Source of the DNA: a virus
Reading direction: 5' to 3' (one strand)
IMG/VR virus record: IMGVR_UViG_3300045961_000165
Span: 1-26,530 of that record
DNA length: 26,530 nucleotides
The notes under the pieces are model-generated. The model ran no database searches, had not been told where the DNA came from, and saw only the letters and a list, made by a program, of their open reading frames with translations. Shown here piece after piece: positions 605 to 10,540 of this stretch. Positions within the stretch are counted from its first letter, which is position 1, and each line of letters starts with the position of its first letter. The translations under genes were made by a program, and so were the position numbers.

Positions 605-1531
605 ATGCCCGTCTCCCATAAGAATTATTTGTCTAAAGATATCTTAGAGTTAAAAGAATACGCTGGAAATGCCCGAAAACATTCAGAAAAACAGATAAAA
701 CTACTAGCTGATTATATCAAAAGTACTGGTTTTATAGATCCAATCGTTATCGATGAAGAAAATACGATTTTAGCTGGTCATGGGCGACTTTTAGCCTTAA
801 AAACGTTAAACACTTCTAGGGTAGACTGTGTACAGGTCTATGGTTTAACGAATGCTGAAAAAAAGGCCTACTGTTTGGCAGACAACAAACTCGGTGAGCT
901 ATCAACGTGGGACATCGATATGCTCGAACAAGAAGCGGCTGCTATCCTCCACGAGGACCTTGATTTTGATTTTTCAAGTCTGGGATTTGAAGCTGAAGAA
1001 ATTGAACATCTGAGATCTCTTATTGACGATGACTCAACAACTAAAGTCTCTTTTGAAGATGACGATGAGCTCTTGAAAGATGACGAGTTGAGTAAACAAC
1101 AAACAAAAGATGAAAAGTACACTAAGAAAATCGAAGCTCCTATATATGAACCTAAGGGTGAAAAGCCAAATCTTAAGGACATCTATGATCTAACCAAAAC
1201 AAATCAACTGTTTGATGGAATACATCGAGCTGAAGGTATCTCTGAAGATGAAAAACGCTTCCTACAGTTAGCTGCTTATCGCCACACTGTCTTTAACTAT
1301 GAGTTAATAGCTGAGTACTATGCTCATGCTAATAAAGAGATGCAGCACGAAATGGAGAAGTCTGCTCTAGTTATTATCGATTTTGATAAAGCGATCGAAA
1401 ATGGCTTTGTTAAAATGACTGAAGAGATAGCAGACGCTTACCGAGACGATAAAGCTTTAGATGACGATGAAGATGAGTTAGACAACGAGTCAGACAATGA
1501 GTTAGACAGTGAGGATGATATCGATGTTTGA
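605..1531 (+). CDS. ParB/Srx-fold nuclease-domain protein with conserved C-terminal domain
   Basis: The protein has 308 residues. Residues about 8-110 form a ParB/Srx-type N-terminal domain with the hallmark GHGR at 58-61 (context DEENTILAGHGRLLAL), preceded by GFIDPIVID and followed by ADNK at 92-95, as in phage ParB proteins tied to DNA methylases. An acidic linker (about 138-162) leads to a second domain at about 176-280 whose wording (EYYAHANKEMQHEME, then SALVIIDFDKAIENGFVK) I remember from phage proteins near DNA-modification genes, though I cannot name it. The tail (281-308) is almost entirely Asp/Glu. The protein lacks the methyltransferase domain often fused to such ParB modules; a methyltransferase is instead the next gene, overlapping by 8 nt. 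The likely role is DNA binding or nicking, or regulation of a base-modification system. Domain identity is good; the role is inferred. Confidence 0.8.
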   Translation: MPVSHKNYLSKDILELKEYAGNARKHSEKQIKLLADYIKSTGFIDPIVIDEENTILAGHGRLLALKTLNTSRVDCVQVYGLTNAEKKAYCLADNKLGELSTWDIDMLEQEAAAILHEDLDFDFSSLGFEAEEIEHLRSLIDDDSTTKVSFEDDDELLKDDELSKQQTKDEKYTKKIEAPIYEPKGEKPNLKDIYDLTKTNQLFDGIHRAEGISEDEKRFLQLAAYRHTVFNYELIAEYYAHANKEMQHEMEKSALVIIDFDKAIENGFVKMTEEIADAYRDDKALDDDEDELDNESDNELDSEDDIDV

Positions 1532-2342
1532 TTTTAGATCTAAAACATCGATCAAAGATTTTGATCTTTTGATTAAGCGTGTAAGTAAATATTTACCTGT
1601 TACTACTGATTTACCTAAGCTAAAGCTTGATACTATAGCTATGATTAACTTTCATAAGAAAAACATAGCTTTAAAGAGTGATAATGGGATTAAGAAATTA
1701 CTTGATAAGTGGTATGTGTCTCTTGAAAATGGTAGTCCTGATTATTCTGTTTACTCAGATCCATTTTATCTTGGGGACATATGGACTTGTTGGTCACATC
1801 ATAGTTCACACTGTATAAATACGCTTAATAAAGACTCCCAGTTAATTAACACTGTGACGCCTAAGCTTAAATTAGACGACGTGACGATCGTTGACGCTGG
1901 GTGTGGGTTAGCCTATACAACTGCAACTTTAAAGCAGCTATTCCCTAAAGCACGAGTTGTAGGGACTAATCTAGAAAACACCTGGCAATACAATCTAGCC
2001 AAAGAGTTATCGCCTTTATGTAAGTTTGAAATTGCGTCATCTTTTAATAAGATTCAAAATGTTGATCTATTTGTAACAATTGAATACTTTGAGCATTTTC
2101 TTGAGCCCATTAAACATTTGGAAGAAATAGTTCATAGATGTAGCCCTAGATATTTTCTTATTGCTAATGGATTTAATTCAAAGACTATAGGTCATTTTAA
2201 TTTTTATAAGCATAATGATGAAATGATAGATAATAGATCTATGTCGAGATTGTTTTGGAAGTCTCTAAGAAGTTTAGGCTATCAAAAGATTGAAACGAAT
2301 ATTTGGAATAACCGCCCCTCAATATGGGAAAGAGTGAAGTAA
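1524..2342 (+). CDS. class I SAM-dependent methyltransferase
   Basis: I take the ATG at 1524 (MFDFRSK), which has GAGG at 1511-1514, 9 nt upstream; the GTG at 1509 and ATG at 1515 have no usable site. The product is 272 residues. Motif I is VTIVDAGCGLAYTT (DAGCG at about 124-128). It is followed by an acidic position after strand 2 (VVGTNLEN) and by VDLFVTIEYFEHF, which has the spacing of motif IV in small-molecule, sugar or nucleic-acid methyltransferases. No DPPY or Pro-Cys motif is present, so it is not an ordinary adenine-N6 or cytosine-C5 DNA methyltransferase. It overlaps the ParB-like gene and sits 1 nt before the glycosyltransferase gene, so it is probably co-translated with both. It may methylate a base adduct or sugar in a hypermodification pathway. 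The fold is confident; the substrate is unknown. Confidence 0.82.
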   Translation: MFDFRSKTSIKDFDLLIKRVSKYLPVTTDLPKLKLDTIAMINFHKKNIALKSDNGIKKLLDKWYVSLENGSPDYSVYSDPFYLGDIWTCWSHHSSHCINTLNKDSQLINTVTPKLKLDDVTIVDAGCGLAYTTATLKQLFPKARVVGTNLENTWQYNLAKELSPLCKFEIASSFNKIQNVDLFVTIEYFEHFLEPIKHLEEIVHRCSPRYFLIANGFNSKTIGHFNFYKHNDEMIDNRSMSRLFWKSLRSLGYQKIETNIWNNRPSIWERVK

Positions 2343-2343
2343 T

Positions 2344-3210
2344 ATGAATGAATATGAAAATAATTTTGCTGCTTTTATTTTAAGTCATAAACGCCCTGAT
2401 AATGTTATTACAATAAAATCTTTAAGAAGGTGCGGTTATACAGGTAAAATATATGTAATCATTGATGATCTAGACGACACGAAAGAACAATATATTAATA
2501 ACTTTGGAAGCGATGTGATCATCTTCGACAAGATGGAATACATTAAGAAAACTGATACAGGAGATAACTTTAAAGGACATGGCACAGTAGCATATGCACG
2601 TAATGCTTGTTTTGATATAGCTCGTAATTTAGGACTGCAATACTTCTTAGTACTTGATGATGATTATACCTGTTTCAGATATCGATTTAATGACTTGTGT
2701 TTATACGGGCCTAAGAAGCTTCGCAATCTAGATAGTGTTTTAAAATCTGTGCTTAAATTTCTAATTGCATCAAATTGTCATTCAATAGCTTTAAGTCAAG
2801 GCGGTGACTTTATAGGCGGGAGTAAATCAGCACTTGCTACAAGAGTTAAACTAAAAAGAAAAGCAATGAATTCATTCTTTTGTAACGTTGATAGACCATT
2901 TCAAATTATTGGCAGAATGAATGATGATGTAAATACCTATGTTTATAATGGCAGTATTGGAAAGCTTTTCTTCACAGTAAACCAAGTGTGTCTCGAACAA
3001 ATGCAAACTCAGAAAAATAAGGGTGGTCTTACTGAGATGTATCTCGAACATGGCACATATGTAAAAAGCTTTTATACTGTGCTTTATCAGCCCTCATCAG
3101 TATCGATTAGGATAATGGGTGGATGTGCTTACCCAAGATTCCATCACTTTATCTCATGGAAACATACGGTCCCTAAAATACTAAGGGAATCACTTAAGAA
3201 AGGTAGTTAA
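2344..3210 (+). CDS. TET/JBP-associated (TAGT-type) glycosyltransferase, predicted DNA-base modifier
   Basis: The protein has 288 residues and a GT-A-like layout. The N-terminal strand AAFILSHKRPDN is followed by GYTGKIYVIIDDLDD. A metal-binding acidic motif FLVLDDDYTCFRYRF lies at about 101-115. SQGGDFIGG (151-159), KRKAMNSFFCNVDRPF, a second acidic motif RMNDDVNTY (191-199), and a C-terminal SFYTVLYQPSSVSI with a final HHFISWKHTVPKIL follow. This order matches my memory of the TAGT family, glycosyltransferases described beside TET/JBP dioxygenases in phages and predicted to glycosylate hydroxymethylated bases. No TET/JBP gene lies in this window, so the acceptor-making enzyme would have to be elsewhere in the genome or be a deoxynucleotide hydroxymethylase. 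The ribosome binding site is weak (GAG), consistent with translational coupling. Family assignment is good; activity on DNA is inferred. Confidence 0.78.
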   Translation: MNEYENNFAAFILSHKRPDNVITIKSLRRCGYTGKIYVIIDDLDDTKEQYINNFGSDVIIFDKMEYIKKTDTGDNFKGHGTVAYARNACFDIARNLGLQYFLVLDDDYTCFRYRFNDLCLYGPKKLRNLDSVLKSVLKFLIASNCHSIALSQGGDFIGGSKSALATRVKLKRKAMNSFFCNVDRPFQIIGRMNDDVNTYVYNGSIGKLFFTVNQVCLEQMQTQKNKGGLTEMYLEHGTYVKSFYTVLYQPSSVSIRIMGGCAYPRFHHFISWKHTVPKILRESLKKGS

Positions 3211-3213
3211 TAG

Positions 3214-3747
3214 ATGAAAACATTGTTTTTCTCTATCGATGGTGTATTTCATCTGGGTTCTTTTAGTAACGTTGAAAGAATTGTTAAATACCATCAGAAG
3301 CAGCAAGCACGTTACATCATGAGTGATGCTATCAATCGCACTACTATTAAGAACCTAAATAAGCTGATGGGTAGCGTCTCTAATCTCTGGCTAGTGTCTG
3401 TAAGTAACTGGAATGAGCTATTCACGCTTAATGATATTAAAGAGATCTTTTCGTATGCAGGTTTTAACTACTGTCATCGACTTCTTGATTGCGCTCCAAA
3501 GATCCCAGGAGTAAAGACAACTAGAGTCGCCTTATGGTTAAGAGAAAACGCTGAAGTAAACGAGGTAAATTCATTTGCAGTGGTTTCAGCATATCCACCT
3601 AAGGGACTATTCGATCAGTATTCTATACAGACGTCAGACGTCATTGGGTTATCTGATCTAGATATAGGTGTGTTGATAAATAACTTTAATCATCAAGCTT
3701 ATAGGTTAAGCGCAGTATGGAAAAACGTAACGCAAAAGGGTCACTAA
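3214..3747 (+). CDS. HAD-like protein, catalytic Asp replaced (probable pseudo-enzyme)
   Basis: The protein has 177 residues. The N-terminus LFFSIDGVFH aligns with the FLDIDGVL motif of short HAD-superfamily proteins, but the nucleophilic Asp is Ser7; Asp9 remains. The rest follows the small phage/bacterial HAD layout: WLVSVSNW in place of the usual SSSWR motif, CAPKIPGVKTTRVALWL where family members have TP...R..EI..WL, then FAVVSAYPP where an acidic pair (DD) is expected, and IGLSDLDIGVLI at the end as in GLT..D. At least the nucleophile and the last acidic pair are missing, so phosphatase activity is unlikely. AAAGG lies about 10 nt before the ATG. It is 3 nt after the glycosyltransferase gene and overlaps the small terminase candidate by 31 nt, so it belongs to the same operon. 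It may be a binding or scaffolding subunit. The family call is moderate. Confidence 0.6.
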   Translation: MKTLFFSIDGVFHLGSFSNVERIVKYHQKQQARYIMSDAINRTTIKNLNKLMGSVSNLWLVSVSNWNELFTLNDIKEIFSYAGFNYCHRLLDCAPKIPGVKTTRVALWLRENAEVNEVNSFAVVSAYPPKGLFDQYSIQTSDVIGLSDLDIGVLINNFNHQAYRLSAVWKNVTQKGH

Positions 3748-4334
3748 AATATAACTGGGAAGACCTATTTACACGGTGGGTTAAGAGTGGTCTTAAGAAA
3801 GATGAATTTCTGAAAGCTGAAGGTATTAACCCAAATGGGATGATAGCTAAAAAGAAAACCGAGACATGGTTAACAGACTTAAAAAAGACTGCTGAAGTTT
3901 TACGCAAAGAAGCCAAGGACGATCAAATAGATCAAGCTATAGCAGCACTCGACGGAGAACAGTCTAAACCAGCTCCTGGTCATGTTCTTAAAGAGATCTG
4001 GCAGATAGTAATGCAGTGGCGTGGGAAGCAAGCTGAAAGCGATTATAAACTGGCAGACGTGATAAGGCTTCATGCTAAGGTTCTTCTTAAGAACAGTATG
4101 ATTACAAAGATTGATGTGAACGGTAAAGAGGTCGTAATGAGTACCTTACGGCCTGCTGATCTAGTGTCTCTTGCTAAAGTAGCGGAGACTGTTCAACGAG
4201 TACAGCGGTTAGCTTTAGGCCTTTCAACAGAGAATATCGGTGTAGATAGGAATCTTGAGATCGACACCCAAGACAATATCCCAGTGTTCGAGGTTCAGGT
4301 TAATGATAAGGGTAAATTCGTTAATATTCGGTAG
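3717..4334 (+). CDS. terminase small subunit (probable)
   Basis: The protein has 205 residues. The basic N-terminus (MEKRNAKGSLKYNWEDLF) begins a helical region (FTRWVKSGLKKDEFLKAEGINPNG) compatible with a helix-turn-helix DNA-binding domain. A long helical middle follows, and the C-terminus IPVFEVQVNDKGKFVNIR resembles the end of small terminases in many tailed phages, where it reads like VPVFEV.VN..GKFV. The start at 3717 has AGGT at 3703-3706, 10 nt upstream, and lies inside the preceding gene (31-nt overlap), indicating translational coupling with the modification cluster. Terminase small subunits recognise the packaging site and load DNA into the large subunit. Unusually, about 1.35 kb of small genes separate it from the large subunit. 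An alternative is a generic phage DNA-binding protein. Confidence 0.65.
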   Translation: MEKRNAKGSLKYNWEDLFTRWVKSGLKKDEFLKAEGINPNGMIAKKKTETWLTDLKKTAEVLRKEAKDDQIDQAIAALDGEQSKPAPGHVLKEIWQIVMQWRGKQAESDYKLADVIRLHAKVLLKNSMITKIDVNGKEVVMSTLRPADLVSLAKVAETVQRVQRLALGLSTENIGVDRNLEIDTQDNIPVFEVQVNDKGKFVNIR

Positions 4335-5521: not shown

Positions 5522-5693
5522 AACAGAGTGGCGTGGTACTAAAGGGCGCGAGGACTATAAAATATTAATGCGTTCTATTGGTCGAGGTAAATACACTTAC
5601 CATGGTTATTTTACTACTACCTATATAGCTAACGGTAATACTTTAGATCAGTGTAAAATCTGTGTTGACCTTTATATTAAGGCTAAAGCTTGA
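5490..5693 (+). CDS. hypothetical small protein
   Basis: The protein has 67 residues. AGGGAG at 5481-5486 lies only 3 nt before the ATG at 5490. A second in-frame ATG at 5502 would lie 15 nt from the same site, so the first is preferred though not certain. The body (ETEWRGTKGREDYKILMRSIGRGKYTYHG and onward, with Tyr/Thr-rich FTTTYIANGNTLDQC) suggests a small beta-sheet domain. It ends in TGA, overlapping the TTG start of the large terminase by 4 nt, implying coupling. No family is recognised. Confidence 0.68.
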   Translation: MIATMWKQISETEWRGTKGREDYKILMRSIGRGKYTYHGYFTTTYIANGNTLDQCKICVDLYIKAKA

Positions 5694-7144
5694 AACAACC
5701 TACCAGACGAGCTCCCAAGAAAATTATTATCAGACTTCCAGCTCCTCATGCTGGAGGTCAAGAGCTATTCGCAAAGTGGAATCTCTTAAACCCAGATAGC
5801 CAAGTATTAATAGCTCCATGTGGAACTAAGGTAGGGAAAACATTTGGTTCTTCGTTATGGATGGTAACTGAAGCTTTAACGAATAAGGGTTTATACTGTG
5901 CTTGGATCGCTCCTACTCTTTTAAAGTGTCAGATAGCTTTTAGATATATAACTCGTATGCTTCCCCAGTTTGATTTTGTAAAGGTAGTTAAATCGAAAAT
6001 GGAGATACATATAGCAAATGGGACTATGATTAAATTTCTTCATGGCTCTGATGCTGAGACTGTTATTGAGGGCGAAAACGTTGATCGCTTCGTTATCGAT
6101 GAAGCAGGTAAGATTAAGCGTCAAGTCTGGTACTCACTCTTTACGACGATAACGCAGACCCGAGGTATTGGGATTATAACTGGGACACCTAGAGGTTATA
6201 CTTGGTATTATGATCTTTTCAAGAAAGCCCAGAATGGCGACCCATTTTTCGTATGGACTCAACTAGCAACTTCCACATCGCCTTATGTTAGTGCCTATGC
6301 GATTGAGTCAGCTGAACGTCTATTACCACCTCATTTGTTTGCTCAATACTACAAAGCTGAATTCATTAGTTCTGGATCGGTGTTTGGCGACTTAAGTCAG
6401 ATGTGGGATCACTCTATTAAGACTGAACAGAAGAGGTATTGGGTACATCCTAAGCCAGAGCAAAGAACTGGACTAGTAGTTCATGGGATAGACGTTGCTA
6501 AGAAAAAGGACTACACGGTTTTCTATAGTGTTAATGGTACGGGTAGGTTAGTTGGGTTTGTTCGTGTTCAGCATATGCCTTATACAGCACAAGCAGCTCT
6601 TGTTAAGCGGTATATTAAGAATTACTTTCCAGATGCTGAAAATTCTATCTTTTATGACTCGACTGGTGTAGGTGAAGCGTTCGGAGATATCTTAAACGAT
6701 AAAGATATCAATGCTACTATCGAACCAGTTATTTTCACCAATCAGTCTAAAGCCGACATGATTACAAAGTCGATGTTAGCTATTCAAACTGGGTGGCATA
6801 AAGCTCCGTTAATTCATTCTATTAACCATGAGTTTTCTACATACGAGTTAATTGTTTCTAAGAGTGGTAATTATCAATACTCAGCTCCAGAAGGTGAGAC
6901 TGACGATATTGTATCTGCTGCTATAATCGCTTTAAGTCATGCTTATTATATCGAGCGTGGAGACTCAGCTCTTGAGTTACTTCGTGAACACTTTAAAGGC
7001 GGTCCAACAGCTATTGAAATACTTAGTGCTTATGATCAAAGCAAAGAAGTTGACGATGAGCACGATATTAACGCTGATACATTTTTTAATAACGATGACC
7101 ACTTCTCAGATGAGACTTTCGATGAAGATCTTGACTCGATGTAG
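5690..7144 (+). CDS. terL: terminase large subunit (ATPase-nuclease)
   Basis: The protein has 484 residues and is the DNA-packaging motor. The ATPase domain has the Walker A-type loop APCGTKVGKT (about 43-52), Walker B with catalytic Glu in RFVIDEAG (about 133-140), and a coupling motif ITGTPRG (about 159-165). The C-terminal RNase H-like nuclease shows the expected acidic residues: HGIDVAKKKDYT (first Asp), SIFYDSTGVGEA (second) and EGETDDIVSA (third). The start is TTG at 5690, overlapping the preceding TGA and preceded by AAGG 8 nt upstream; the first internal Met comes after Walker A, so a non-ATG start is required. The C-terminal 40 residues are acidic (DDEHDINADTFFNNDDHF). The packaging strategy (cos, pac) cannot be told from this. 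Confidence 0.95.
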   Translation: MKQPTRRAPKKIIIRLPAPHAGGQELFAKWNLLNPDSQVLIAPCGTKVGKTFGSSLWMVTEALTNKGLYCAWIAPTLLKCQIAFRYITRMLPQFDFVKVVKSKMEIHIANGTMIKFLHGSDAETVIEGENVDRFVIDEAGKIKRQVWYSLFTTITQTRGIGIITGTPRGYTWYYDLFKKAQNGDPFFVWTQLATSTSPYVSAYAIESAERLLPPHLFAQYYKAEFISSGSVFGDLSQMWDHSIKTEQKRYWVHPKPEQRTGLVVHGIDVAKKKDYTVFYSVNGTGRLVGFVRVQHMPYTAQAALVKRYIKNYFPDAENSIFYDSTGVGEAFGDILNDKDINATIEPVIFTNQSKADMITKSMLAIQTGWHKAPLIHSINHEFSTYELIVSKSGNYQYSAPEGETDDIVSAAIIALSHAYYIERGDSALELLREHFKGGPTAIEILSAYDQSKEVDDEHDINADTFFNNDDHFSDETFDEDLDSM

Positions 7145-8230: not shown

Positions 8231-10540
8231 ATGTTTAATTTTTTAAAAAGCAAGTCTGAACCTGTAAATCTTCAACCTAAAGATGATTTCTCTGATTTTG
8301 GTGAGCTAAACGGAGCGTTTAAAAATGCTCGTGATGAAGTACTTGAAAATTTAACGAAGCAATTTGACTACACTCAATTTGATCCAACCAAGGACGATCA
8401 GTCTAATTACTTTGGTCTTGAGTTTGATATTCAAACAACCAGTAGCAGACTTAAGAGTCTTTACGTTAGAGAACCATGGGTCTATGCGTGTTCTGATCGT
8501 ATTGCTCGTAATGCTTCTAGTGTACCTCTTTTGATTGTAGATGCTAAGACTGAAGAACCACTTCCAAATCACCCCGCAAATGATATCGTTAATCAGGGTT
8601 CATCTTTTCAGGACGAGTTAACCAAGAGATGGGTTCAATTTCTTGATTTAATTTTAGCTGGTAATGCATTTCTCATAACTGATAAAGCTTATACTTATGG
8701 CTGTACCGTTCCAACTGAACTAGTAACGCTTCAAGCTAAAGTCGATCAGCAGTTTGAGGATATCTTAAAATACGGCCCTATCGATCACGCTAGTATTTTT
8801 GGTTATGGGACTAATGCTAACGTTGGAATGAAAGTACCTTTTCAACAACTAATTCATTTTAAGCTACCAAACCCATTCAATCCGTTTTATGGGTTATCTC
8901 CCTTTGCAGCAGCTTCTAGACCAGTTTTACTAGACAGATATAAAAATGAATTTGAGATGGCGTTTTATCACCGTGGAGCGTCTCATTCAGGAGTTATAGA
9001 AAACGATAACGAAATTGGCAAAGAGAAGATGAGAAGGCTTATTGCAAGCTTTGAGGCGCTATATACGGGTAAACGCAACTGGTGGCGCCCTATGTTCTTG
9101 CCAAAGGGCGCGAGATGGAAAGCGTCATCATTAACCATGTCTGAGATGCAGCACTTAGAAGGACTAAGAGAAAACAGACTAACACTCTTAGCAGTATTGG
9201 GAATGCCTCCTAGTCAAGTGGGATTAGTACAGGACGTAAATAGATCAACGTCAGAAGAGCAAGCAAAGATATTCTGGCAGAATACTATCATTCCACTAGT
9301 CAACTTCTATTGCGCTGGCTACAACAACTCATTCTTATTCAGATATCAATATGCTGGTGCGGTTAAAGTTATGCCAGATCTTGCAGGTATAACCGCACTA
9401 GAAGGATCTCTTGTTAGTAAGGGCGAAGCTGTAAATGCTTTGAAAGAAGTATTAACGATCAACGAGCTAAGAGTGGACGTATTAGGCTATGAAGAACTAC
9501 CGTCAAATGACCCCAGAGGAAATCTCTTTGTTAAAGAAATTACTCCAAACATTTTCGGACCCGAAATACCACAAACTCCAACGCCTGTTCCAGAAAAGAC
9601 AAGTACTAGTGGAGAAGGCGAAAGCACTGACGGAGCTTCAGAAAAAACTATAAATATTGCTAAAGAGAAAAGCATTGCTAAGACAGGAATAGTAGCAATA
9701 GAAAAAAGCTTTGGCGCTAAATTTATGGTCTATATGCGATCGTATGAAGAAAAGCTATTAGAGCAAACTATTTATGCTTTAGAAAATTATCGTAATGTTA
9801 ATGCTTATCTTTTAACTAAACAGCAAGAGCGTGTTGATCAATTTAAAGCTGAAGCACTGCCTATCCTTTTAAGCGCAATGGATAGGGGTTTTACTATGTC
9901 TATGCTTTCAACTAAGCGTATGACTGATGTATGCCATAAGGCTTCACAAGGCTATGAGTTTACACCTGAAGATGAGCAGGCTATAGCAGCCATTAAAGAA
10001 CGCACACGAGATAGACGGCGTAAAATTCTTGTCGATAGAGAAATCACTAAATTTTATGGTTGGGATGAAAACTACTCTGAAAGAATAATGAAGAAAATAG
10101 AGGCAGGTCTAGAAGCTGGCAAGACAAACGGCGAAATAGCTAAAGAGATAAAAGATGACATGGATAGTAAAGGCGGTGAGACTTATCGAGATCAAGCTTT
10201 TACGATAACTCGAACTGAAACACTTACGGCTGTATCTGAAGGCATTAAGTGGTCAACAGATGTGCTTAATACTTTGTTTACTGAAGTTAATAAAATCTGG
10301 CTACATGTAGGCGATTATGACACTAATGATGACGCAAGAGACGAACATCATGACTTTGAGCTATTAGGTGAAAAGCCCTCATCTTATGTTTATAAAAACC
10401 CAAAAACAAAGAATGAACTGTTATATCCAAGAGATCCTGCGGGTGGTGCTTCAGACGTAATTAATTGTCGTTGTAGTTTATCTAACGTTATTCCAAAGAC
10501 ATCCCATTCTAGGGCAAAACCAATACTTAATGAGGTTTAA
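8231..10540 (+). CDS. portal protein fused to MuF-type head morphogenesis domain
   Basis: The protein has 769 residues. The N-terminal part (about 60-440) is an HK97-type portal: YVREPWVYACSDRIARNASSVPL, then HPANDIVNQ, LILAGNAFLI, LIHFKLPNPFNPFYGLSPF, and SSLTMSEMQHLEG followed by LLAVLGMPPSQVG. This is the usual order for the ring protein through which DNA enters the head. A Pro/Thr/Ser/Glu-rich linker (about 441-475) joins it to a C-terminal helical region and a MuF domain with DTNDDARDEHHDFE (about 695-706) and VINCRCSL near 743-750, where MuF proteins have D.R..H and NCRC. Portal and MuF are usually adjacent genes, so the fusion guarantees 1:1 stoichiometry. AGGGA lies 9 nt before the ATG. 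The product is likely a head-vertex component; the MuF part may be injected or act in assembly. Confidence 0.9.
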   Translation: MFNFLKSKSEPVNLQPKDDFSDFGELNGAFKNARDEVLENLTKQFDYTQFDPTKDDQSNYFGLEFDIQTTSSRLKSLYVREPWVYACSDRIARNASSVPLLIVDAKTEEPLPNHPANDIVNQGSSFQDELTKRWVQFLDLILAGNAFLITDKAYTYGCTVPTELVTLQAKVDQQFEDILKYGPIDHASIFGYGTNANVGMKVPFQQLIHFKLPNPFNPFYGLSPFAAASRPVLLDRYKNEFEMAFYHRGASHSGVIENDNEIGKEKMRRLIASFEALYTGKRNWWRPMFLPKGARWKASSLTMSEMQHLEGLRENRLTLLAVLGMPPSQVGLVQDVNRSTSEEQAKIFWQNTIIPLVNFYCAGYNNSFLFRYQYAGAVKVMPDLAGITALEGSLVSKGEAVNALKEVLTINELRVDVLGYEELPSNDPRGNLFVKEITPNIFGPEIPQTPTPVPEKTSTSGEGESTDGASEKTINIAKEKSIAKTGIVAIEKSFGAKFMVYMRSYEEKLLEQTIYALENYRNVNAYLLTKQQERVDQFKAEALPILLSAMDRGFTMSMLSTKRMTDVCHKASQGYEFTPEDEQAIAAIKERTRDRRRKILVDREITKFYGWDENYSERIMKKIEAGLEAGKTNGEIAKEIKDDMDSKGGETYRDQAFTITRTETLTAVSEGIKWSTDVLNTLFTEVNKIWLHVGDYDTNDDARDEHHDFELLGEKPSSYVYKNPKTKNELLYPRDPAGGASDVINCRCSLSNVIPKTSHSRAKPILNEV

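Follow-up and report, generated by a model that had tools for sequence, protein, structure and literature searches.

INTRODUCTION

The TAGT-family glycosyltransferase of phages T2 and T6 places a second glucose onto glucosylated hydroxymethylcytosine in DNA, and a model of the T6 enzyme with a GT-A fold has been published (PMC13216743). The same report counts 288 of 753 TAGT-bearing phage genomes in which TAGT occurs without known partner glucosyltransferases, with its function given as undefined. The family may not be dedicated to DNA alone, since O-GlcNAcylation of a protein has been attributed to human GREB1, in which a domain of the glycosyltransferase kind is reported (PMC10908778, citing Shin et al. 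2021), and some TAGTs of the kind studied here are named "GREB1-related" in E. coli annotation. In a further type of phage DNA modification, genes for CmoX DNA-cytosine carboxymethyltransferases often have ParB-domain genes as neighbors, and fusions of ParB domains with DNA methyltransferases are common (PMC12783734); the word "glycosyltransferase" does not occur in the text of that paper.

The window analyzed here is the whole of IMG/VR virus record IMGVR_UViG_3300045961_000165 (26,530 nt), and all window searches were confined to this 26.5-kb record. A sequence-only reading had proposed that four of its genes, encoding a ParB-fold protein, a methyltransferase, a TAGT, and an inactive HAD, form a DNA-base hypermodification cluster. 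The TAGT identity, the ParB fold, and the position of the operon beside packaging genes are all supported, and a base-modification role is still the likeliest reading. We put at roughly 60% the probability that this operon glycosylates the virus's own DNA, forming a sugar adduct with the assistance of the ParB/YYAH protein described below and with optional tailoring.

RESULTS

The four open reading frames (605–1531, 1509–2342, 2344–3210, and 3214–3747) are all open and lie on the + strand. Their coordinates confirm the overlapping or abutting arrangement described earlier, with a 23-nt overlap between the ParB and methyltransferase genes, spacings of 1 nt between methyltransferase and TAGT and 3 nt between TAGT and the HAD-like gene, and a 31-nt overlap of the latter with the next frame. 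That next frame (3717–4334, + strand) is a possible terminase small-subunit gene, as suggested by its position and a weak match to phrog_6299 (E 0.02). The placement directly upstream of the terminase is broadly correct: this weak candidate abuts the operon, and the large subunit (5690–7144, + strand; phrog_2, E 8e-36; PF04466 subthreshold) comes after several small frames and is followed by a portal gene at 8231.

The third gene (2344–3210, + strand) encodes a 288-aa TAGT of subfamily A. A profile search, which had been suggested as a check on this protein, matched it to PF20691 (E 2e-32; 113 bits against a cutoff of 27.5) over profile positions 3 to 205 of 205, and it also belongs to phrog_842 (E 3.5e-66). 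The three motifs by which it was originally recognized (LDDDYT, SQGGDFIGG, and MNDDVNTY) are all present in the translation, and, in an alignment of 50 sequences, it retains every one of the 27 invariant columns, the DD of LDDDYT among them. PDB sequence searches with the TAGT returned nothing convincing. Related loci contain up to five TAGTs in tandem as well as a second, divergent subfamily with 21 to 25% identity to subfamily A; an inserted gene in two loci (L005 and L077), once read as a methyltransferase, was recognized as a second TAGT.

The first gene (605–1531, + strand) encodes a 308-aa ParB-fold protein (phrog_620, E 1e-51) fused to a TAGT-partner domain termed YYAH. The N-terminal ParB/Srx-fold domain (aa ~1 to 145; 605–1039, + strand) is indicated by structure matches and a GHGR motif, and the C-terminal YYAH domain (1109–1441, + strand; HMM E 4e-46) is all helical and ~110 residues long. 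An AF2 model of the protein (mean pLDDT 81.6) matched ParB/Noc structures over residues ~5 to 150 with VIA Z scores of 13 to 15, which agrees with the earlier ParB assignment. The YYAH domain had no Pfam match above the cutoff and is a domain without a Pfam family. No convincing hit came from PDB sequence searches with either ParB or YYAH as a profile, and no PDB fold match was found for the YYAH part, which was searched inside the whole ParB model, whose ParB domain filled the list. In HMM searches, YYAH was found in 79 of 80 viral and 48 of 49 genome TAGT loci, the exceptions appearing truncated, while a reciprocal search with YYAH as the sole query found TAGT in all loci (80/80); the two genes usually overlap. 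YYAH is the near-constant partner of subfamily-A TAGT, and the pair looks obligate. ParB, matched in 86 of 135 homologues, is an optional fusion rather than a constant TAGT partner. The earlier reading of a ParB fold is supported, with the refinement that the constant element is the C-terminal domain.

The second gene (1509–2342, + strand; GTG start, exact start uncertain) encodes a 277-aa class I SAM-dependent methyltransferase. The protein is subthreshold in Pfam, one relative passes the cutoff, and the Pfam scan gave no PF00145 or PF01555 match up to E 1. Its AF2 model (pLDDT 84.8) has the class I methyltransferase fold (VIA Z 12 to 15), and the lack of DNA-methylase signatures supports the earlier reading of a noncanonical methyltransferase. 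Motif I (DxGCG; D129-x-G-C-G) is invariant or nearly so among relatives, and the window protein keeps the invariant columns. The fold is generic, and the closest structural matches are enzymes with small-molecule, tRNA, or protein substrates. Single-sequence searches drew no hits in phages, plasmids, or viral contigs, and relatives emerged only once TAGT operons L114 and L125 supplied an alignment. Homologues are present in these two operons and in L147 to L152 (L148 and L149 being near-duplicates), L205, and L208, where they adjoin two TAGT subfamilies, including the divergent one. Because it recurs beside TAGT elsewhere, the second subfamily included, the methyltransferase looks like a real, optional component of the module.

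The fourth gene (3214–3747, + strand) encodes a degenerate HAD-like protein of 177 aa whose sole family match is phrog_1818 (E 1.2e-5), a direct comparison not being significant; a phrog_1818 member in another record matches HAD_SAK_2 (E 2e-23). Its first motif reads FFSIDGV, versus FLDIDGV in an intact-looking relative, so that the nucleophilic Asp of the DxDG motif is missing (SIDG versus DIDG). No relatives were found in the phage collection, the first TAGT loci, or the viral-contig scan, and phrog_1818 was found in 1 of 29 records by a search in which the window protein itself fell below the pass level. Since no related locus searched contained a relative, we rejected the HAD-like protein as a module part, and its proposed membership in the set is unsupported; the gene may be passenger cargo.

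In related loci, a histidine phosphatase-cytidylyltransferase fusion sits between partner and TAGT (six loci), and other cytidylyltransferase-like genes follow or lie among the TAGTs, a set of associated genes that fits glycan building. In a ParB-X-TerS-TerL arrangement, position X holds DNA-modifying genes, namely, a ParB-N6/N4-methylase fusion in phage Javan178 and a gene for a Tet_JBP-like protein, matched below the curated cutoff, in Nigel. A reading of Nigel gp2 as a queuine ribosyltransferase was rejected, its sole Pfam match being to Tet_JBP and subthreshold. The YYAH-TAGT pair often abuts packaging genes, which would also suit a TAGT that glycosylates a phage or host protein (e.g., capsid, portal, or terminase) with YYAH/ParB as an adaptor. 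The protein target reported for GREB1, the "GREB1-related" annotation, and the failure to find an acceptor-making base enzyme in the records searched point the same way. However, many partner proteins include a ParB fold, relatives of which occur in DNA-methylase fusions, larger viruses keep the pair away from head genes, flanked by those for DNA polymerase A and the sliding clamp, and the T6 TAGT acts on DNA; we consider a protein target unlikely.

Under the classical pathway, TAGT would glycosylate a hydroxymethylated pyrimidine whose source, be it a TET/JBP, a hydroxymethylase, or a host enzyme, went undetected; T6, where the TAGT gene adjoins a hydroxymethylase gene, is the family precedent. 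Profile searches of the 26.5-kb window, an incomplete genome, found no TET/JBP, thymidylate synthase or hydroxymethylase of that fold, or C5-methylase, in keeping with the sequence-only reading, which had left the acceptor source open. Among related module records, Tet_JBP was absent from 26 and then 21, thymidylate synthase from 26 and then 10 more, and C5-methylase (PF00145) from 30; the exception, pv27, carries the pair plus a thymidylate-synthase-fold gene and favors the classical pathway. In positive controls, the thymidylate synthase search detected T6 and the Tet_JBP search detected the Nigel protein, the latter below the curated cutoff, so divergent Tet_JBP members could be missed; IMG/VR records may also be incomplete, and some module records are fragments. 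Against this, the complete 38-kb genome of the cultured phage phi jlb1 has no such enzyme among its listed genes, and the module also occurs in strict anaerobes (Veillonella and Blautia among them), whereas TET/JBP enzymes need oxygen. Because relatives searched as whole records, this cultured phage included, have no detectable TET/JBP or hydroxymethylase, such an enzyme elsewhere in the genome is probably not the acceptor source, and the classical pathway appears decidedly improbable. Decaying or accessory cargo without current function, as the nearby degenerate HAD and the losses in relatives (the partner domain in the LL-Ku locus, both domains in K-12 Rac) might suggest, is very improbable, with all four window frames open and the TAGT and methyltransferase keeping their invariant columns.

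DISCUSSION

The best reading of this operon is ParB-assisted, TET-independent base glycosylation with an optional methyltransferase, nucleotidyltransferase, and tandem TAGTs. We infer DNA as the target, as well as the role of each protein, the sugar, the acceptor, and the benefit. The ParB-fold/YYAH protein would probably bind DNA and present it to TAGT; alternatively, the YYAH domain would present the acceptor group. TAGT would then transfer the sugar carried by an activated nucleotide, and in this virus the methyltransferase would most likely cap or tailor the sugar or modified base; the product may be a methylated sugar on DNA. DNA modified in this way would resist host restriction and other DNA-targeting defenses. 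Counted for a DNA target were the action of the T2/T6 TAGT, the near-constancy of the pair, the DNA-modifying X genes upstream of TerS-TerL, the ParB associations of CmoX and of DNA methyltransferases, the replication-gene neighbors in larger viruses, the glycan-building genes, and the methyltransferase beside two TAGT subfamilies. Counted against it were the acceptor-making enzymes not found in the module records searched, except pv27, the protein target reported for GREB1, the generic fold of the methyltransferase, the possible incompleteness of IMG/VR records, and the usual site of the pair beside head genes, which also suits a structural-protein target. More tentatively, and at somewhat less than even odds, the pathway may dispense with a premade hydroxymethyl pyrimidine, either by adding sugar directly to an ordinary base (e.g., at an exocyclic amine) or through an acceptor made without oxygen by YYAH and subfamily-A TAGT themselves, with methyltransferase capping or dedicated donor synthesis as options.

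The YYAH domain gives many partnerless TAGTs a concrete, testable partner, and two recurring kinds of accessory enzyme have been shown for the TAGT module. Cultured phages such as HHTV-2 and the Lactobacillus phage phi jlb1, whose ParB-YYAH-TAGT set is intact, together with E. coli prophages, provide tractable material. If TAGT indeed needs no TET or hydroxymethylase, the module would add sugar to DNA by a new route, which would matter for restriction evasion and could serve as an enzyme tool.

The beta-glucosyl-HMC-alpha-glucosyltransferase of T2/T6 is likewise phage encoded and shares PF20691 and a PHROG with the window TAGT, and its T-even substrate is DNA. However, the T6 and window TAGTs have no significant BLAST match, and T6 has hydroxymethylase and alpha-glucosyltransferase genes and, by HMM, neither a YYAH domain nor a subfamily-A TAGT in its TAGT region. 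TET/JBP-linked systems share the TAGT family, and the Tet_JBP-like gene of Nigel occupies the equivalent position before TerS-TerL; unlike those systems, the module records searched had no Tet_JBP match. Solitary TAGTs, like that of the window, lack an alpha- or beta-glucosyltransferase, and in the passages on them no partner is described; "ParB" does not appear in the text of that paper (PMC13216743). CmoX 5-carboxymethylcytosine systems also modify phage DNA bases near ParB genes but use a DNA cytosine C5-carboxymethyltransferase, whereas no C5-methylase was matched in the module records searched. The ParB-DNA methyltransferase fusion of Javan178 has a homologous ParB domain at an equivalent site upstream of the terminase, with a DNA N6/N4-methylase in place of YYAH and TAGT. 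Finally, the window ParB-fold protein may differ from chromosomal and plasmid ParB partition proteins, its C-terminal half being the YYAH domain.

Results

On the window sequence, we confirmed the four open reading frames of the operon (all on the + strand), with the overlaps and motifs claimed in the sequence-only reading. Its assignment of the 288-residue protein (2344–3210) to the TAGT glycosyltransferases was borne out by matches to PF20691 (E = 2e-32) and phrog_842 (3.5e-66) rather than to an unrelated family. The 308-residue protein (605–1531) indeed has a ParB/Srx-fold domain, matching phrog_620 and modeling near Noc and ParB structures, and the 277-residue protein (1509–2342) is a class I methyltransferase by profile searches and structure model. 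The 177-residue protein (3214–3747) is probably a HAD protein that has lost its nucleophile; direct comparison with one HAD relative gave no significance. Genes for the terminase large subunit, portal, and head lie downstream. An opposite-strand open reading frame of unassigned function (1–306, - strand) runs off the record end. Overall, the observations of the earlier reading were sound, while its interpretation was correct in part only.

The "ParB" protein could be split in two: of 135 homologues, 130 matched the C-terminal part and only 86 the ParB domain; many partners were stand-alone proteins of 130 to 150 residues. The C-terminal domain, named YYAH from its motif and given its own HMM, has no Pfam family and is covered in PHROGs only as part of phrog_620; its predicted structure consists entirely of helices, with confidence across roughly residues 190–252. 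Since the best-scoring loci were used, near-duplicates included, the counts describe constancy within this subfamily rather than frequency over all TAGTs: YYAH was present in 79/80 TAGT loci from viral relatives and 48/49 from bacterial genome contigs of many phyla, a reverse scan with the domain alone returned 80 loci, all 80 with TAGT, and the two lay within 150 bases in 208 of 221 domain-TAGT pairs. In the two loci lacking YYAH (L036 and L143), the TAGT gene was at a contig edge or matched only in part. In pv27, a module-bearing virus, the 139-residue gene preceding TAGT is a YYAH domain by HMM.

The commonest order in both locus sets was "ParB" gene, TAGT, and usually the small and large terminase subunits; in larger viruses, the pair is flanked by genes for DNA polymerase A and the sliding clamp. 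Cultured phages with the arrangement are phi jlb1, HHTV-2, c5, SPF_0923, and NTR1. LL-Ku (L085) has TAGT without the partner domain in its locus, and several otherwise conserved motifs are altered in the c5 TAGT (L084); these loci are possibly relics in that phage genus. Rac-like prophages of Escherichia coli (E69, L138; ATCC 8739, L145; K-12, L146) carry the module as ynaK (the ParB gene), TAGT, and terminase. In ATCC 8739 the ynaK annotation is truncated, yet the YYAH and TAGT HMMs both match; K-12 has lost YYAH and TAGT and retains only remnants (ynaK and ydaY). A megablast query of part of trkG, ynaK, and TAGT matched 1,611 of 5,426 genomes, and in 904 of them the match covered 80% or more of the query; since trkG sequence is part of the query, the 1,611 should not be read as the number of TAGT carriers.

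Single-sequence searches of phages, plasmids, and viral contigs with the window methyltransferase returned no relatives. Relatives (34% identity) occur within the same operon in Verrucomicrobia and Falkowbacteria MAG contigs (L114 and L125), and an alignment scan gave nine viral loci: six with TAGT adjoining (L147–L152, L148 and L149 being near-duplicates), one with TAGT about 10 kb away in the same record, and two short fragments. Two more (L205 and L208) came from the YYAH-first set. L147–L151 have the ParB domain, no YYAH domain detected by HMM, and a TAGT of a divergent subfamily, with Pfam E-values of 1e-37 to 1e-49 and BLAST identities of only 21 to 25%. This second subfamily has a different C-terminus (KLIVHF...KTIWFP) and stands beside a methyltransferase of the window's family. 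A functional link between the enzymes is favored by the finding of one methyltransferase family with both TAGT subfamilies. The tree fits a small number of changes and does not fix the count of independent gains. Because the modeled fold is a generic one, matching methyltransferases that act on small molecules, RNA, or protein, the substrate is inferred from context.

In six loci, YYAH and TAGT are separated by a gene that joins a histidine phosphatase to a cytidylyltransferase-like domain (L162:1338–2291; also L174, L180, L184, L198, and L218) and whose product may be a dedicated sugar-donor enzyme. Other cytidylyltransferase-like genes lie after TAGT or inside a TAGT array, as in L064. More than one TAGT match occurred in 22 loci, with a maximum of five, and L064, L078, L141, L207, and L225 have arrays of three to five. 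The accessory genes point to the supply of an activated donor and to glycans built in steps.

Discussion

TET-independent DNA glycosylation is predicted as the best explanation of the module, with a probability of roughly 0.6. Part of the link to ParB could already be present in earlier descriptions. Searches of the window, for which the searchable genome was the 26.5-kb virus record alone, agreed with the earlier statement that it holds no TET/JBP or hydroxymethylase gene. Because many records are fragments and the control match in phage Nigel falls under the curated cut-off, absence of acceptor enzymes is not proof: Tet_JBP was found neither in 26 records nor in a further set of 21 (Nigel control, E = 4e-8), thymidylate synthase neither in 26 records nor in ten additional module records, and C5-methylase in none of 30 records, with most control genomes positive. 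The window belonged to both the set of 21 and the set of ten. Thymidylate synthase was found in pv27, and the T6 control returned its known genes. No other base-modification enzyme is among the genes listed for phi jlb1. The module is also carried by strict anaerobes (Veillonella and Blautia, for example), in which TET, being oxygen-dependent, is unlikely.

Against a DNA target stands the possibility that TAGT glycosylates protein: protein O-GlcNAc activity is reported for GREB1, and some of these TAGTs are named "GREB1-related" in E. coli annotation. DNA is, however, the likely target: the T6 TAGT acts on DNA (PMC13216743), and the module's ParB domain shares homology with ParB domains that, at this same position upstream of terminase, are fused to N6/N4-methylases, for example in Javan178. 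In phage IPP66 (L087:3974–5068), a ParB domain upstream of terminase is fused to DUF4417, possibly another ParB partner at that genome position. Nigel gp2 (L239:776–1744) is annotated as a queuine tRNA-ribosyltransferase, but in Pfam it matches Tet_JBP alone, at E = 4e-6, which falls short of the cut-off. A DNA target is also favored by the location of this Tet_JBP-like gene between ParB and TerS and by the ParB-domain genes often found close to CmoX systems (PMC12783734).
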